Source: a bacterium
Lineage (GTDB): Bacteria; Patescibacteriota; Patescibacteriia; UBA1558; S5-K13
Length of the DNA: 38,567 bases
Assembly: GCA_029555085.1 (NCBI GenBank)
Contig: JAKPTO010000015.1
Coordinates: forward strand, 1-38,567
Reading direction: 5' to 3'
The first letter of the stretch is position 1, and each line of letters starts with the position of its first letter. Shown here one piece after another: positions 8,842 through 30,803 of this stretch. The position numbers and the translations under genes are program-made. The notes below the pieces were generated by a model. The model ran no database searches, was not told the origin of the DNA, and worked only from the letters and a program-made list of their open reading frames with translations.

Positions 8842-10212
8842 ATGTCAAATAAATCTAATAAAAAATTAATAATCATTTTAGAGGGAATTTTATCTATTTC
8901 TGCGCTTATTTTTATATCTTTTTTTAATTTAAATTTAAGCGTAGCTCTGGGAATTATAATAATTGCAATACTTATTCCTCTTTTTATAATATTCCCATAT
9001 TATTCTCTTTTGCTTCTACTAATAGTTAGAAATTCTACTGATCTATATGCTGAAAATGTTTTTATTGATTTTTATTTTGTATCTTTAAACTTTTCTTCCA
9101 TACTTGGAATAATGATAATTCTATGGGCAATTTATGTAATTTTAAAAGAAAATATTGACATAAAAAAAATTCCACTTTCTATACCGTGGATTTTATTTTT
9201 ATTTTGTGCGTCCTTAAGTTTAATTTATTCTATTGATAGGGCTAGTACTTTAAAAAATTTAACAAAATTATTCAACTTTTATTTTATTTATATAATTTTT
9301 TATCATTATTTTCAAAACGCTCAAAATAAACATAAAACAAGAAAATATTTTATTTTATCCATTTTATTTTCGTTTTTCATTCCTTTAATATTTGGTTTGT
9401 ATCAATTTATTTTTAATAAGGGATATGTCGGTCCGGAAGGATTAAATAGAGTTTACGGAACTTTTACTCACCCAAATATTTTTTCATTCACATTGCTGTT
9501 TCTCTTATTTATCTTAGTAATTTTGTATACACAAAATTATTATAAAAAAAGAAAAAAAGAAAATAAATTAATATTATGGCTTATTTTTATAACAATATTC
9601 ACATTGATAAATACTTTTACAAGAAGTGCCTGGCTTGGAGCCCTTGCATTTATTTTTCTATGGATGTTTTTATATAAAAAAAATAAAATTTTTAGTGTTC
9701 TATATTGTGTCTCCATTATTGCATTTACTTTATTTTTAGTAATAAATTATACTCCGCTTAAATATTATGATTTTAATAACATTGATTTTGTTAGAAGATT
9801 AACAACTTCTGATACTTCTATTTCTTCTACGCAATGGAGAATGCTCTCCTGGAGACAAATGTCAAGCTATGTTTATAAATCTCCAATCATTGGATTTGGG
9901 CTGGGTACATATAGATTATTAAGAGAAAAACAAATATATTCTAGTGTCTATGAATATCCGTACTATGCCCACAATGATTACTACCAAACACTAATTGAAC
10001 TTGGTGTAATTGGTTTATTTTTTTATTGTAATTTATTATTGCAAACATTTCGCAATATTTATAAAAAATATTTACAAAAAAAAGACAAAACAATTCTTTT
10101 ATCTTTATTTGGAATAATTATTATTTTTTCAATAGGATTTGTTGATAATATTTTAACATCAACTTCCCTACAATGGCTCATTTGGGCCTATATTGCGTTT
10201 TTACTTACCTAA
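8842..10212 (+). CDS. O-antigen ligase/polymerase-like membrane protein (Wzy_C)
   Basis: A 456-aa polytopic membrane protein with about ten to twelve hydrophobic segments. Three signatures place it in the O-antigen ligase/polymerase (Wzy_C, PF04932) superfamily: YGTFTHPNIF, then NTFTRSAWLG, and GFGLGTYRLL followed by YAHNDYYQTLIELGVIG. Such proteins join or polymerise undecaprenyl-linked glycans outside the membrane. It is the only plus-strand gene in the polysaccharide locus and diverges from the radical SAM gene at 8755. A compact terminator follows immediately. Polymerase versus ligase versus protein glycosylase cannot be separated by sequence. Confidence 0.88.
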   Translation: MSNKSNKKLIIILEGILSISALIFISFFNLNLSVALGIIIIAILIPLFIIFPYYSLLLLLIVRNSTDLYAENVFIDFYFVSLNFSSILGIMIILWAIYVILKENIDIKKIPLSIPWILFLFCASLSLIYSIDRASTLKNLTKLFNFYFIYIIFYHYFQNAQNKHKTRKYFILSILFSFFIPLIFGLYQFIFNKGYVGPEGLNRVYGTFTHPNIFSFTLLFLLFILVILYTQNYYKKRKKENKLILWLIFITIFTLINTFTRSAWLGALAFIFLWMFLYKKNKIFSVLYCVSIIAFTLFLVINYTPLKYYDFNNIDFVRRLTTSDTSISSTQWRMLSWRQMSSYVYKSPIIGFGLGTYRLLREKQIYSSVYEYPYYAHNDYYQTLIELGVIGLFFYCNLLLQTFRNIYKKYLQKKDKTILLSLFGIIIIFSIGFVDNILTSTSLQWLIWAYIAFLLT

Positions 10213-10215
10213 ATT

Positions 10216-10253
10216 AAAAGGAGGCAGAAAATTTGCTCCATCTCCTACCTCCT
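10216..10253 (-). terminator. Minus-strand terminator of the 10269 gene
   Basis: On the minus strand a purine-rich GGAGGT arm pairs with GCCTCC (one G-U pair) and is followed by TTTTAATTT. It lies just downstream of the 10269-10799 gene and overlaps the plus-strand terminator of the facing gene. Confidence 0.5.
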
Positions 10254-10266
10254 AAGAGGTTTTTAT
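10247..10266 (+). terminator. Plus-strand terminator of the Wzy-like gene
   Basis: ACCTC-CTAA-GAGGT hairpin (10247-10260) followed directly by TTTTAT. The stem is short (5 bp) but the position 35 bp after the stop codon and the T-run support it. Confidence 0.5.
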
Positions 10267-10268
10267 AC

Positions 10269-10799
10269 CTATTTGATATTGCCCGCTGGCAATATCCCTT
10301 TTGAATCATCGATCCGGAATCGAAATTCCAGATTTTCCCTTGTTACTTTGGGATCCTGTTTCGGATCATATCCGAAAGCAGAGAACCTATCAACAAAACC
10401 GTAACCGGTTTTTCCGTCCCTTGTTAGGATCTCTACGGCAAAATAGCCATATCCATCCTGACTCAGAACTTCATTTTTCTTTACTCTAGCAACTAGAGCA
10501 TTGTAGCGTAGCTCCATTCCCTTGCTAGAGTTGTTGTAATGTAGTGTAGCTTTTTGAATATCTGCTACACTAAAGGGTTTAAAATCTTTGGTTAGCCCTG
10601 GACCTACCAGGTAAAAATCCTTTGGATTATTAGCCTGGCGTCTAATGACGAACCAGCCCTCAAATTCAGAGCTAAGGCTATAGCTGATTACTAGCTCATC
10701 GCCTTCCTCGAGAACGCTAAAACGCTCCCTGCTGTCTACTTGTGCATAGGTAGCAGACAACAAGCACACAATGATGATCATCATAATGATCTTTTTCAT
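10269..10799 (-). CDS. Exported hypothetical protein, 176 aa (GC-rich island)
   Basis: Function not recognised. An N-terminal signal peptide (about residues 1-20, ending SATYAQ) indicates export. The mature part is about 155 residues of likely beta-rich sequence with no cysteines and no catalytic motif I can name. A strong SD (GGAGG, 10804-10808) precedes the ATG, a consensus-like promoter lies at 10890-10917, and terminators bound it, so it is a monocistronic unit. Base composition is visibly richer in G+C than the flanking polysaccharide genes. A weak resemblance in length and strand pattern to the 181-aa neighbour (LVxYS near the start, FEF/FRF near the end) could mean distant paralogy; I cannot test this. 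Confidence 0.85.
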   Translation of the reverse strand: MKKIIMMIIIVCLLSATYAQVDSRERFSVLEEGDELVISYSLSSEFEGWFVIRRQANNPKDFYLVGPGLTKDFKPFSVADIQKATLHYNNSSKGMELRYNALVARVKKNEVLSQDGYGYFAVEILTRDGKTGYGFVDRFSAFGYDPKQDPKVTRENLEFRFRIDDSKGILPAGNIK

Positions 10800-10889
10800 A
10801 ATTCCTCCTGGAATTTTTTATTTTTTTTGGATTTTTATTTTAGAATGAAATCACTACACTCTACAAATAAAAACCCTCTCGGTGCTTAT

Positions 10890-10917
10890 ATAATACTCCA
10901 TATAAAAAATTTGTCAA
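10890..10917 (-). promoter_or_regulatory. Sigma-70-type promoter for the 10269 gene
   Basis: On the minus strand, perfect TTGACA (10912-10917), 16-bp spacer, TATTAT (10890-10895). It lies about 90 bp upstream of the start codon and implies a transcribed leader of roughly 80 nt. Confidence 0.65.
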
Positions 10918-11000
10918 GTGCTTGTATATGCACACATTATTGGTCTAAATTATATTAAAATGTATTGTTTTCTTAAAAAAGATAAATTTTTTGTATAAAT

Positions 11001-11037
11001 TAAAAGAGGGTGGAAACGAATTTTCTCGCTTCCACCC
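11001..11037 (-). terminator. Strong Rho-independent terminator after the three-gene island operon
   Basis: A 12-bp stem (11026-11037 paired with 11008-11019, one G-U) on the minus strand is followed by TCTTTTA. It is 8 bp beyond the stop codon of the 181-aa gene and separates that operon from the 10269 gene. Confidence 0.8.
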
Positions 11038-11045
11038 TTTGAAGT

Positions 11046-11591
11046 TTAGTAGGTGACCGGTGTTATTAGCACCGATCCTCTTGTTTTCGAAAGATTAAAT
11101 TCGAAATGTGACTTGCCCGGGTCACGACTGTAATTGACTGTTCGGTCAATCACATACTGCGACCAGTCACACAGAGAATAGGCCGGGGCTGTAACCAGCT
11201 TTCCTGCCTTCTCATATGTGACGAGGCATTCCCACGTCAAATCGTGGGGGCCTTCCACGAGATTCGCTATGGGCACCTCAGAATAAAATCCCTGGGCGCC
11301 TGGCGCATCGGCGTGATAAACACAGGTCCAGACTTTATCTAGATAAAGTCTGGGCTCCTCTATTTTTATTATCCGATACACCGGTTTTCCATCCGGTGTG
11401 CGCCCAGCCATAGGTCCAACCAGGTTGTCTCCGACTGCCACGAAGTGGCACTGGAGGTCTGGTTGGGTTGAATAGTATACCAGCAACATGCTGGAATCCT
11501 CCGCCTTGGGACCGATTTCGATCCTGACGGGTTTTGCGAGTATAGCAGTAATGGCCATCAGTGCGATGGCAAAAATTAGCATTTTCTTCAT
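11046..11591 (-). CDS. Exported hypothetical protein, 181 aa (GC-rich island)
   Basis: Function not recognised. A classical signal peptide (residues 1-19, ending AILAK) precedes about 160 residues that look beta-rich. Four cysteines (QCHF, WTCVY, WECLV, SLCDW) could form disulfides outside the cell. It has an SD (GGAGG at about 11596-11600) and is the third gene of a tight operon (21 bp after the lipoprotein gene), ending in a strong terminator. G+C content is around half by eye, far above the AT-rich host genes, which suggests horizontal acquisition from a different lineage. Confidence 0.85.
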   Translation of the reverse strand: MKKMLIFAIALMAITAILAKPVRIEIGPKAEDSSMLLVYYSTQPDLQCHFVAVGDNLVGPMAGRTPDGKPVYRIIKIEEPRLYLDKVWTCVYHADAPGAQGFYSEVPIANLVEGPHDLTWECLVTYEKAGKLVTAPAYSLCDWSQYVIDRTVNYSRDPGKSHFEFNLSKTRGSVLITPVTY

Positions 11592-11612
11592 TTTTCCTCC
11601 TATGCTATGGGG

Positions 11613-12665
11613 TTATTGTGGTCCAATACCAGCCCATTGACCTCGAAGGTCCACGGGCTCGATGTTACTGGTTATCCCATTTTCTATTTTGGCGGTAAAT
11701 AATTCCTCGCCATAATAGAGATATTGATTTATCAATTCCACTCCTCCGACGGTGATACCAAAAATTTTTGGATTTCCGGGATCATCAAAGGAGAAGATTT
11801 TCAGATTAAAGACTTGGTTAGGGAATAATCTAAGAGTCGTCTCCCAACGATTGTATGTTGAGTTCCAACTCATTTTTTCCCTACAGAACTGGGATCCAGA
11901 CCAGGCAATTTTACATTGCATATCCGCTGTGCACGGCTCTGTAAAATTGATAATCTGGTCTTGGGGGATTGGCAGAAGTTGCACTCCATCCGCAGTATAA
12001 CCACCAACACCATCCCAGTAACAATTTACCTTCACAAGTCCACTTTGGGGGATACCTAATGTAAATAGTTCCCCTGCAAAGTTTTTTCCGAAAGTATAAC
12101 ACGGAATATTTACTTTCGGTCTGTCTTGAGGGAAAACCCCATCTGGTGATTGAGACAGGAGCATTCCCGTGCAATTTAACGTTTCTAACACATTGCCAGA
12201 AGCGTCATATCTTTTTAACACGGGAGCACCCCAAAGCACTTCTAAATCCCCATTGGGTTTTTCTAGAGCAAATCTTACTCGGTTTACACTATCTTCATCC
12301 TCCGGAATGCTCCGGATCAACACCATCGTAGAAAATGAATTAAATGGTGTTGTTGGACCAACAGTCCCCAATAATATTTTTTCCCCAGTATCATTGGGGT
12401 GTAATCTTACAGGTCCACTTTGGGGATCCTGAAAGAATCCACTCCCCGCGATAACCCATACCTTGTCTCCGTTTTGGGGATTCTTGGCGGGGTCTTTAGA
12501 GGGCTCGGGATCTGATGTGTGAAGCTTATAATAGCTTCCACTAGGATCAATAAAATCCCCATCGGTTATAACTTCCGGTCCCAAGATGTTGTCTGCAACC
12601 GAATTTCTGTCGCAACCAACAATCATAAGGGAGATTAGTATCACCACGAAAAAAAAGTTTTTCAT
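11613..12665 (-). CDS. Putative lipoprotein, 350 aa (GC-rich island)
   Basis: Function not recognised. The N-terminus is a type II signal peptide with lipobox LMIVGC, giving a lipidated Cys18 and membrane anchoring. The rest is a beta-rich extracellular sequence with several cysteines (NCTG, IPCYTF, VNCYWDG, EPCTADMQC, QFCREK). No enzyme motif is visible. SD AAGGAG precedes the ATG, and the gene sits 22 bp after the 515-aa barrel-like gene and 21 bp before the 181-aa gene. The three exported proteins probably act together at the cell surface. Composition differs strongly from host genes, as for its neighbours. Confidence 0.86.
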   Translation of the reverse strand: MKNFFFVVILISLMIVGCDRNSVADNILGPEVITDGDFIDPSGSYYKLHTSDPEPSKDPAKNPQNGDKVWVIAGSGFFQDPQSGPVRLHPNDTGEKILLGTVGPTTPFNSFSTMVLIRSIPEDEDSVNRVRFALEKPNGDLEVLWGAPVLKRYDASGNVLETLNCTGMLLSQSPDGVFPQDRPKVNIPCYTFGKNFAGELFTLGIPQSGLVKVNCYWDGVGGYTADGVQLLPIPQDQIINFTEPCTADMQCKIAWSGSQFCREKMSWNSTYNRWETTLRLFPNQVFNLKIFSFDDPGNPKIFGITVGGVELINQYLYYGEELFTAKIENGITSNIEPVDLRGQWAGIGPQ

Positions 12666-12687
12666 TTTATCTCCTTTTTAATGTAAT

Positions 12688-14235
12688 CTAATGTAAATAC
12701 CTACTTGGCATGTTCCAAAACAATGTCAACTTACATTCCATGAGATCGTCACTGCGATCTTCCTGGTCCTCAAGTTGTTCACAAGTTTTGGTATAGCCAA
12801 GAATACCCTCTATCATCCACCTTCCTTTCGGCCTGTAGAAGGCACCAACCCTATAGTCACACCTTCTAAACCTCGACCACTCATTTTGGTCATCCCTATT
12901 TTGAATGTGAAAAATTTCTCTATGACTTACAAAAAGAAGCCAATTTTCACTAAATGAACGCCCGACTCTCGCATCAAATGAATAATGCTCGAACCCAGGA
13001 GCTCTCAGAGTATCCACCATCTCAGATGGTGTTAGTTGATACCCTCCAGATGCAAACATATACCACCTTTTAGGCTCAAGTTTTAATGAACCCGTGACGG
13101 CATATGTCCTGGGATTTTTGTTAAGGACGGTGTTGGCAAACACCTGGAAATGGTTGTTGCCATCCATACTGAGTTTTTCATACCCAGCATAGATGCCGTC
13201 CTCTTTGGGTATTGGGATGTAGCTCATTGAGAATCTTTCCCAAATCCTCTCATCTGTGAGTTCGTAATACTCGCATTTTAGATGAGCGAATTCGCGATAA
13301 TCTCGTCTCCATCCCATTTCAAAGAAATTTCTCCGAATGGGTTGCCACTGGACACCTAGGGTGGTGTGCCAGTCATAGGGACCATCTTGGTAGCCCCCCT
13401 CAAAACCGGCAATGATGGCAAAGTTATCTTTCAGACACACTTTACCACCAATAGATACTATTCCGGAGTAAATTCCCTTATCAGTGGTGTTATAATCCAC
13501 TAGAGTATATCCATTTGTTCCCAGAACCCTAAAAAATGGTTCCCCAAATAAATCAGTGGCCCCAGAGACCCACCCCCAAACGTGGGCACACAGTCTTCTC
13601 TCTATCACTTCTACAAAAATCGTATCAGTGACTGTTTGATAGACCGGATAGGGCCTATCAACATAGACTGTGTCGTGCACAACAACCTCATAAGGTTCTG
13701 GCACGTATTTGATTTCAATTGAGGGTTCGGGCGGAGGTTTGGGCAAGTCCAGTTCCTTCCAACAATGGTTGTTGCACTGAACTTTTCCGTTTAAATTGTT
13801 CTGAAACCAATAGCTACAGAACAACTTTCCAGTCAGTGAGTTGTAGGCCTTTACCAGCCAGGCACTGGCTGGCTTTACATTAAAATTTTCTCCGATTGTC
13901 ACTTGTGCCAATCGGACAATGATATTAGGGGAGTACTTTCCTCCATAGCATTCCCCGTCAAACCTCTCTCCGGATGTCACAACGACCTTTTCCTTAATGT
14001 CGTTGTTGAAATTGGAGATGAGACTATCCGCACAGTCCGGAGCTATTACTCCAACCGCAACCAATAATCTCATGTGATCTTCAAACTTCTCGAGGCAACT
14101 TACGTCGCCTCCCATCTTTACCCATGTCCATGGCCTACCGCGATGGACTTCCACGTTTTTCCCTTTGTATTTCAGGGCAAAAAGTCCAGAAAAACAAAAA
14201 AGGAAAACTACGAAGACGAAAATTATCTTTTTCAT
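12688..14235 (-). CDS. Exported protein with C-terminal beta-barrel-like region, 515 aa (GC-rich island)
   Basis: No family recognised by name. A signal peptide (1-20, ending GLFALK) is followed by a Cys-containing N-terminal domain to about residue 165, a proline-rich linker (PKPPPEP) and a HDTVYVDRPYPV stretch, then about 300 residues of alternating polar and aromatic residues typical of outer-membrane beta-barrel strands, ending near LTLFWNMPSRYLH. Comparable linker-plus-barrel architecture occurs in Bacteroidota-like diderms. CPR cells are thought to be monoderm, so a barrel protein would be out of place; another surface fold is possible. SD GGAGG lies 8-12 bp upstream. First gene of the three-gene operon. 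Confidence 0.86.
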   Translation of the reverse strand: MKKIIFVFVVFLFCFSGLFALKYKGKNVEVHRGRPWTWVKMGGDVSCLEKFEDHMRLLVAVGVIAPDCADSLISNFNNDIKEKVVVTSGERFDGECYGGKYSPNIIVRLAQVTIGENFNVKPASAWLVKAYNSLTGKLFCSYWFQNNLNGKVQCNNHCWKELDLPKPPPEPSIEIKYVPEPYEVVVHDTVYVDRPYPVYQTVTDTIFVEVIERRLCAHVWGWVSGATDLFGEPFFRVLGTNGYTLVDYNTTDKGIYSGIVSIGGKVCLKDNFAIIAGFEGGYQDGPYDWHTTLGVQWQPIRRNFFEMGWRRDYREFAHLKCEYYELTDERIWERFSMSYIPIPKEDGIYAGYEKLSMDGNNHFQVFANTVLNKNPRTYAVTGSLKLEPKRWYMFASGGYQLTPSEMVDTLRAPGFEHYSFDARVGRSFSENWLLFVSHREIFHIQNRDDQNEWSRFRRCDYRVGAFYRPKGRWMIEGILGYTKTCEQLEDQEDRSDDLMECKLTLFWNMPSRYLH

Positions 14236-14292
14236 CTTTTAATCCTCCATATTTTTTATTTTTTTTAATGTGCTATTTTTTATCTAAAACGC

Positions 14293-14302
14293 TTACGCGT
14301 AA
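14293..14302. promoter_or_regulatory. Perfect 10-bp palindrome at the island edge
   Basis: TTACGCGTAA is a perfect palindrome about 58 bp upstream of the island operon start and 12 bp from the end of the Wzz-like gene. It is GC-rich in its centre within otherwise AT-rich spacer. It could be an operator for the island operon or a junction scar; no function shown. Confidence 0.3.
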
Positions 14303-14313
14303 TATTTTTAATT

Positions 14314-15156
14314 TTATTTACCTAATAATCTTCTTCTTAATTCTTCAAAATCTATATTGTCTGAAATATTTCTATTTTGCGAATTATTGTTAATATTATT
14401 ATTTGCTGAATTTTCTGTATTATTTTCTTGAGCTTCTGCTTGATTAAAAACTAATTTAATTTTTTGATGTGTTTTGGCTTTTTTATTACTAGAATTAAAG
14501 AAGTTATTTAAACTAGCATCAAAATTTGTATATTTATTTGGAAACAATACCATAAATGAAATATTAAAAAACACGGCTAAAATAAAACTCGTAAAAATAT
14601 TTACAAACCAATTTGGTCTCACTGGATAATTTGATGTAACTGGAGTATCAATAATTTGTAATTTAATTAAATCTCCCGCGCCATGATAATCTTTGTGTGT
14701 TTGAAAAAGTGTATTTATAATATTGTTTAAATGTTTTTCTGCTTCAAAAGCTGATTCATTATATACTTTTATTTGTACTATTGATGTATTTGGAATAATT
14801 TTTACATCAACTTGCCTTTTCCAATGATTTCTTTTTTGTTTTTCACTTGCATAAAATTTAAAAGGAGTGTCTGGATATTTTTCTATAACTTGATTTCTGA
14901 ATGATGATGATAAAATTGCATCGCTTATATTTTTAGATATGGCCTCAGATGCTTTACTAGCAATGTATGCATCCATTTGCATTTGTTGATTCTGAATTAT
15001 TAAAATTTTTGCAGTTGATGAGTATTCTATTTTTTGAAAAACTGTTAATATACAAGATATCAATATAAAAATTAATACAAAGAAAACAAAAGCAAACTTA
15101 TTCTGTAATGAAAAGTTTAAAACGCTTTCTGATTTTGTTGTTATTTTTTCTTTCAT
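14314..15156 (-). CDS. Wzz/YveK-type polysaccharide chain-length determinant protein
   Basis: A 280-aa protein with one N-terminal membrane helix (about 23-44), an external coiled region and a second helix (about 186-206) preceded by DTPVTSNYPVRPN, the proline-rich motif before TM2 in Wzz/PCP proteins. It lacks a fused tyrosine kinase; instead the cytoplasmic tail is Asn-rich (about 238-265) and ends in charged EELRRRLLGK. Such proteins set glycan length or help export. It starts 1 bp after the upstream DUF4012 stop, so the two are translationally coupled. No SD. Likely partner of the Wzy-like gene beyond the island. Confidence 0.82.
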   Translation of the reverse strand: MKEKITTKSESVLNFSLQNKFAFVFFVLIFILISCILTVFQKIEYSSTAKILIIQNQQMQMDAYIASKASEAISKNISDAILSSSFRNQVIEKYPDTPFKFYASEKQKRNHWKRQVDVKIIPNTSIVQIKVYNESAFEAEKHLNNIINTLFQTHKDYHGAGDLIKLQIIDTPVTSNYPVRPNWFVNIFTSFILAVFFNISFMVLFPNKYTNFDASLNNFFNSSNKKAKTHQKIKLVFNQAEAQENNTENSANNNINNNSQNRNISDNIDFEELRRRLLGK

Positions 15157-29981: not shown

Positions 29982-30803
29982 TTATTTAATGTATGTAAAT
30001 GGTTCTGTTATTTTCCCACATTTAATTTCTAAATCTGCAGATCCAGTTTTCAAAAAATTTGTTTCATAAATCCAGCATGCTATTTCAGAATTATTGAATC
30101 CCCTTATAGTACCAACCCCATCCGCAGAATTGTATTTATTTTCATTTAAACCAAAAGAATTAAAAAATCCACCAACCAAATCATTTCCAGATTTATTTAT
30201 AATAACTTGATTTAATTTTATCCCCTTACCAGTTATAGATGTTATATCAGAACTTGAAAAACTATATTCAAATGTTATATTGTTATTAATCTGGGGATTA
30301 TAAACTCCAAATTTCGCACTTAAATCTTGTAATATTTGAACGATTGAATCTTTTACCATGTATTCCTCAATTTTCTCCAAATCTCTATTTGTTATTCCAA
30401 GCGACAATCTTCTAAATAAATTCATTAGATTTCCCCATGTAACCTCGTGTTTCATTCCATTTGAATCTATATACCATATTCTTCCCTTATCTTCTACTTG
30501 TAGAAGTAATCTTCCTTTTAATCTATTTCCTAGGGTTGTTGATTTTACTTCTGAAATTTGATCTAAATCTTTATTGGATATTCCTAAAGATAGTTTTTCA
30601 AATAAAGGAAGTGCATTAGCAAATGTTACTTCATATCTTTTTGAATCATCTGGATTTACATACCATATTCTTCCTTTGTCTTCTACTTGTAGAAGTAATC
30701 TTCCTTTTAATCTATTGGATAAATTCTTGTCATAGCTTGCCGCTGAAACAAAAGTTACAACAACCAGCATCATGACTAAACTAATAAAAAGTACTTTTTT
30801 CAT
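29982..30803 (-). CDS. Exported protein with two GRLLLQVE...WY repeats
   Basis: A 273-aa protein with a signal peptide (1-22). Residues 30-83 and 93-146 are two copies of a module starting NRLKGRLLLQVEDKGRIWY, continuing through a (Y/H)EVT strand and ending LSLGI(S/T)N(K/R)DL. This module, in the form GRILLQVE..G.AWYVNP, is common in extracellular proteins of CPR bacteria; no function is known. The C-terminal 125 residues are unrecognised and beta-rich, with two cysteines (ACWI, IKCG). It is 22 bp after the Memo-CapA gene and no SD is visible. The copies are almost identical at DNA level, indicating recent duplication or conversion. Confidence 0.82.
   Translation of the reverse strand: MKKVLFISLVMMLVVVTFVSAASYDKNLSNRLKGRLLLQVEDKGRIWYVNPDDSKRYEVTFANALPLFEKLSLGISNKDLDQISEVKSTTLGNRLKGRLLLQVEDKGRIWYIDSNGMKHEVTWGNLMNLFRRLSLGITNRDLEKIEEYMVKDSIVQILQDLSAKFGVYNPQINNNITFEYSFSSSDITSITGKGIKLNQVIINKSGNDLVGGFFNSFGLNENKYNSADGVGTIRGFNNSEIACWIYETNFLKTGSADLEIKCGKITEPFTYIK
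30471..30527 (-). repeat. 57-bp direct repeat, copy in second protein module
   Basis: Matches 30660-30716 with two mismatches, offset 189 bp (63 codons). Both copies contain the inverted repeat CTTCTAC-TT-GTAGAAG. It encodes the KGRLLLQVEDKGRIWY core. Confidence 0.85.
30660..30716 (-). repeat. 57-bp direct repeat, copy in first protein module
   Basis: Partner of 30471-30527; the mismatches are both third-position type, so the amino acid sequence is unchanged across the core. Confidence 0.85.

Follow-up and report, generated by a model that had tools for sequence, protein, structure and literature searches.

The window analysed here is a whole contig (C31, 38,567 nucleotides) of the 1.02-Mb genome of a patescibacterium, which is assembled in 53 contigs, is 99% complete and has STF1_138 (deposited as 'Patescibacteria group bacterium STF1_138') as the nearest relative found; the source bacterium is probably a symbiont. 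At positions 10216-14302 the window carries an island of four genes for predicted exported proteins, which lies between two genes of a surface-polysaccharide locus and stands apart from the rest of the genome in base composition. The island is a real, conserved and family-specific operon that has probably been maintained vertically and is not an assembly error.

The four genes and their signals

All four genes were called as open reading frames (ORFs) on the minus strand between a Wzz-like gene and a convergent Wzy_C gene, and the coordinates and gene calls of an earlier, sequence-only reading of this DNA hold. The largest gene encodes an exported protein of 515 amino acids (aa) (12688..14235), for which our reading of alignments delimits a signal peptide (residues ~1-20), a QCNN domain (~21-165), a Pro-rich/DTVYV linker (~166-212) and a beta-barrel-like domain (~213-515). 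The remaining genes encode a 350-aa lipoprotein with the lipobox IVGC (11613..12665), a 181-aa exported protein whose GC content at third codon positions (GC3) is 0.54 (11046..11591), and a 176-aa exported protein (10269..10799). Each of them has a predicted signal peptide or lipobox, judged by visual inspection and a crude rule for hydrophobicity rather than by SignalP; by the same means, the N-terminus of the 515-aa protein is hydrophobic in all four orthologs described below, as expected of an export signal, and a cysteine follows the hydrophobic signal in the 350-aa protein and its three positional counterparts (VGC, TSC, TAC and ISC), which are thus predicted lipoproteins.

Shine-Dalgarno (SD) sequences precede all four genes on the minus strand, namely GGAGG for the 515-aa gene (14244..14248; pattern match 14229-14248), the 181-aa gene (11596..11600; pattern match 11585-11600) and the 176-aa gene (10804..10808; pattern match 10793-10808), and AGGAG in the upstream sequence of the 350-aa gene (12671..12675). 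The terminators that had been proposed correspond, on the same strand, to a terminator-like hairpin of 14 pairs with a T tail 3' of the 181-aa gene (11007..11038) and a terminator-like hairpin of 14 pairs 3' of the 176-aa gene at the island end (10219..10253), and a promoter-like TTGACA-16-TATTAT, identified by its match to the consensus (11/12), lies 5' of the 176-aa gene (10890..10917, minus strand). Both flanking genes have the composition of the genome at large and were placed correctly by the sequence-only reading: the Wzz-like gene (14314..15156, minus strand; GC3 0.13) matches PF02706 at E 5e-5, just under the curated cut-off, and the Wzy_C gene (8842..10212, plus strand; GC3 0.17) matches PF04932 at E 2e-22.

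None of the four proteins had been recognised from the letters alone, and none matches any family in Pfam, NCBIfam, PHROGs or PADLOC. Searches of the PDB gave matches only above E 0.05, and weak SusD matches of the lipoprotein profile were not used. A defence island, which had been one of the suggestions, was rejected because no PADLOC match appeared up to E 0.1. A phage or plasmid origin was likewise rejected, since the 515- and 350-aa proteins match no viral contigs, PHROGs gave nothing significant, and tblastn found no match for the 515-aa protein in phages or for the 350-aa protein in plasmids.

Conservation in the family and age of the composition

The genome set consists of the source genome (G000), a congener (G001) and representatives of two further genera (G002 and G003), which together are all four genomes of the family. 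Each carries, at the same site, wzz followed by a barrel-like protein, a lipoprotein, a small exported protein and a convergent wzy. In the congener, the genes stand in this order between the corresponding Wzz and Wzy genes, with orthologs 50% and 60% identical to the 515- and 350-aa proteins, respectively, a remote counterpart of the 176-aa protein (25% identity) and no counterpart of the 181-aa protein. Searches of G002 and G003 with the 515- and 350-aa proteins gave no match; their Wzz loci encode an exported protein of 538 or 552 aa, respectively, a lipoprotein and an exported protein of 140 or 150 aa ahead of the convergent wzy. Profile-profile comparison (Prob 98.4, E 4e-15) establishes homology between the large proteins of the different genera, which have the QCNN motif in common, so that those of G002 and G003 are remote orthologs of the 515-aa protein. 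The lipoproteins (profile E 0.001, Prob 19) and the small exported proteins (E 3e-6, mostly from the signal peptide) are linked across genera chiefly by position. A four-row profile of the large proteins was run against 286 genomes of the taxonomic class, where its matches were confined to the family (none in the other 282) and included a second G003 protein; this 428-aa protein (L107:348-1634) carries the same QCNN domain (E 8e-8) behind a membrane anchor.

The higher G+C that had been noted in the island was borne out: its GC content is 0.425, compared with 0.288 +/- 0.021 (maximum 0.337) for 234 overlapping chunks of 4.1 kb drawn from this genome, and its tetranucleotide L1 distance of 0.494 exceeds that of every one of 120 chunks (maximum 0.270). 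These baselines and the ORF baselines below come from a 331-kb sample of the genome that was partly picked around SD sites. At fourfold-degenerate sites, the GC content (GC4) is 0.30-0.59 in every island gene of all four genomes and 0.09-0.22 in wzz and wzy. Common occurrence in the lineage with the same composition, which the sequence-only reading had set against its own proposal, is therefore what is found at the family level, in four of four genomes and with raised GC4 in all.

This composition is old. Between the source genome and its congener, fourfold differences at conserved residues reach 0.72 in the 515-aa gene (0.76 at saturation) and 0.64 in the 350-aa gene (0.75), whereas those of the flanking genes are 0.37-0.55, with 0.52-0.65 expected at saturation; the island proteins are 46-60% identical and the flanking ones 67-80%, and the island alleles are thus the more diverged. 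Recent islands would be patchily present and show little silent divergence, but this one is present throughout the family with silent sites near saturation. The proposal of an acquired surface system accordingly stands in its surface part, given that all four proteins are predicted to be exported and the wzz/wzy site recurs in four genomes, but a recent acquisition of GC-rich DNA is not supported. A GC content that has stayed raised through near-saturating silent change is compatible with prolonged vertical inheritance as well as with recurrent replacement by alleles from a pool of higher GC, of which the former is favoured because site and order are common to three genera. Such lasting distinctness is at odds with the usual view of genes of odd GC content as recent arrivals.

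A second class of genes with GGAGG leaders

The island belongs to a second, genome-wide class of genes, which is marked by a GGAGG leader, a frequent TTGACA promoter, raised GC3 and fast evolution. GGAGG stands upstream of 33 of 309 sampled non-island ORFs, so that the strong SDs first described hold for the island while the statement that the other genes have none was an overstatement. In the 331-kb sample, these 33 ORFs have a median GC3 of 0.30, compared with 0.185 for the rest (p 3e-12), and GC3 shifts in the same direction around SD sites in G001, G002 and G003, where the ORF sampling pattern was biased towards MK starts. Between the two congeners, nine pairs of class orthologs, the 515-aa pair among them, have a GC4 of 0.35/0.30 and a median identity of 57%; the values for 30 background pairs are 0.17/0.16 and 80%. 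When only genes preceded by a gap of 80 bases or more are counted, 48 of 100 class members and 19 of 242 others have TTGACA (p 5e-16).

Nine exported proteins of the class, spread over all four genomes, bear a type A sorting domain of the type IX secretion system (T9SS) above the NCBIfam cut-off; among them is an M23 peptidase with carbohydrate-binding domains that is kept in G000 and G003. Of 36 genomes from the order, 21 have the sorting domain, compared with 7 of 380 sampled across the phylum. Within G000-G003, Omp85 (PF01103) was not detected by a search whose control worked, and the factor inserting any barrel would therefore have to be the host's. SprA was not found in these genomes either, in a search with a weak control in which no control genome rose above the cut-off. 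Among the titles and abstracts that name Patescibacteria and type IX secretion, no link between the two appeared, and none of them pairs the candidate phyla radiation with T9SS.

Several further observations merit separate mention. Tagged exported proteins occur at one conserved locus (L041:9186-11542 in G000, L068:2541-5088 in G002 and L087:1325-3454 in G001) beside alaS-like and MINYYQ-type genes; in both G000 and G002 a tagged pair adjoins this alaS-like gene, and the gene at the opposite end of the G000 pair is found next to the tagged gene in G001 as well. GGAGG-led genes at L011:1510-2208 (G003) and L061 (G002) have nearly identical upstream regions across two genera and thus look like a recently mobile unit, and a stretch of GC3 0.53-0.82 at L070 (G002:C71) is probably a binning contaminant or a piece of phage. 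Small GGAGG-led peptides ending in STCCGASKG (L050:7905-8147 in G000; L008:1295-1510 and L028:1508-1723 in G001) are conserved between the congeners, with two copies in G001, and are possible precursors of ribosomally synthesized and post-translationally modified peptides (RiPPs). A 53-aa Cys-rich peptide, NCKNCICKCQNCKCGHC (L032:1346-1507, G001), adjoins a radical-SAM-like gene (1509-2543), with which it may form a RiPP pair. The leaders of L087, L022 and L068, for example TGCTCTTTGACAATTAATA, show a possible resemblance to rRNA boxA antitermination elements. Elsewhere in the window, a 273-aa exported protein (29982-30803) contains two near-identical copies of the motif RLKGRLLLQVEDKGRIWY.

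Possible role of the island and comparison with known systems

The explanation that we favour, tentatively and with a little less than even confidence, is that the island is a vertically kept, host-facing envelope operon, aimed perhaps at a diderm host of the Fibrobacteres-Chlorobi-Bacteroidetes (FCB) type; such a partner is indicated by the T9SS tags in the exported repertoire of the order, which are otherwise characteristic of bacteria that have an outer membrane. The symbiont would synthesize the island proteins and export them through Sec, and they would act where it touches this host. The barrel could then dock in the outer membrane of the host or imitate it, a complex with the barrel may be completed by the lipoprotein and the small exported proteins, and the adjoining polysaccharide genes might shape the coat around this complex.

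Central to this proposal is the C-terminal domain of the 515-aa protein, for which a beta-barrel fold is likely but unproven. With an ad hoc strand-alternation score, whose propensities were set from general knowledge, the C-terminal halves of the four large orthologs give z values of 2.0-3.5, and aromatic residues are found in the last strand or at the C-termini of all four. In controls, OmpF (3.0) and the OmpA barrel (3.5) scored high and E. coli non-barrels stayed at or below 1.0, but LamB was missed (0.2). The outer-membrane barrel suggested by the sequence-only reading is thus moderately supported by the score in four orthologs, while the missed LamB and AlphaFold on two-row alignments, with a predicted local distance difference test (pLDDT) value of 33 for the 515-aa protein (31 for the 350-aa protein), count on the other side.

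Besides these two results, several others weigh against a host-facing operon. The T9SS tag (TIGR04183, PF18962) matches none of the four island proteins, and the link to a diderm host therefore runs through the gene class. Where it was compared, the sorting domain shows no higher conservation than the remainder of its protein (35% vs 43-54% identity; 54% vs 64%), and selection on the tag itself is thus not demonstrated. Signal peptides are not significantly enriched among the GGAGG-led genes of the 331-kb sample (p 0.21), which makes these a class by expression grammar and not by export. The anti-SD sequence is kept in the 16S rRNA of G002 and G003 (a 16S search of G000 and G001 found none), so that the leader signals need no host.

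The nearest competing reading is a role on the symbiont's own surface, which is credible though the less probable of the two. The proteins would decorate this surface, associated with an S-layer or capsule, without ever entering the outer membrane of a host; the beta-rich C-terminal domain would be soluble or S-layer-like, and the wzz/wzy setting would reflect capsule assembly or anchoring. The wzz and wzy genes that flank the island in four genomes, the lack of a detected Omp85, a lipoprotein that might be anchored in the membrane of the symbiont itself and the intact anti-SD are all in its favour, but against it stand the barrel-like alternation and aromatic C-termini in four of four orthologs and the T9SS tags on other genes of the same class.

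It is unlikely that the raised GC and strong signals arise from high expression, or from GC-biased gene conversion at frequently recombining accessory genes, and have no bearing on a host. Consensus promoters and SDs are usable by the symbiont, but the class evolves faster than the background, unlike highly expressed genes, and the fourfold bases of the island are near even instead of biased to preferred codons. Rather doubtful, too, is a hotspot that over and over takes up related cassettes of higher GC from one common pool of donors and so remains foreign in composition. The excess divergence of island alleles over the flanks in both protein identity and fourfold differences, the 181-aa gene found in one congener only and the horizontal gene transfer documented for groundwater Patescibacteria, with Bacteroidota and Omnitrophota as donors (PMC12455944), would fit such uptake, whereas order and junctions are identical in three genera and no donor homolog was found in the genome, viral, phage and plasmid collections, of which the genome scan was pattern-based and may miss distant relatives.

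We consider it improbable that the second gene set is written in the idiom of the host (consensus promoters, strong SDs, host-like GC, barrels, lipoproteins and T9SS tags), its products being processed by or made inside an FCB-type host through delivery of nucleic acid across the contact or routing through the host's envelope machinery; the intact anti-SD makes this reading unnecessary. Type IV secretion systems of Patescibacteria are mostly without a relaxase (PMC12102498). The assembly chimera that had been raised earlier, in which a stretch of a foreign organism was joined into the contig, would suit the sharp composition steps at both island edges but can be dismissed, because three other assemblies show the same gene order and neighbours at the same site.

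The operon and the order-wide T9SS-tagged proteins, in genomes without detectable Omp85, are a concrete genomic clue to the probable type of host (diderm, FCB-like), and together they offer a short list of candidate contact proteins for localisation.

Among known systems, T9SS type A cargo of FCB bacteria has the same sorting domain (TIGR04183/PF18962) as other GGAGG-led genes, but the island proteins are without it and SprA went undetected under its weak control. The 515-aa protein resembles outer-membrane beta-barrel proteins in its signal peptide, its beta-rich, alternating C-terminal half and its aromatic last-strand residues, and differs from them in matching no known barrel family and in residing in a genome with no detected Omp85. 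As in Wzz/Wzy-dependent surface-polysaccharide loci, the operon is flanked in all four genomes by a Wzz-like gene and a Wzy_C gene, although no island protein resembles polysaccharide-assembly proteins. With the genomic islands of Patescibacteria (PMC12455944) it shares a local composition anomaly with accessory genes; unlike them, it keeps its position in three genera while its silent sites are close to saturation.

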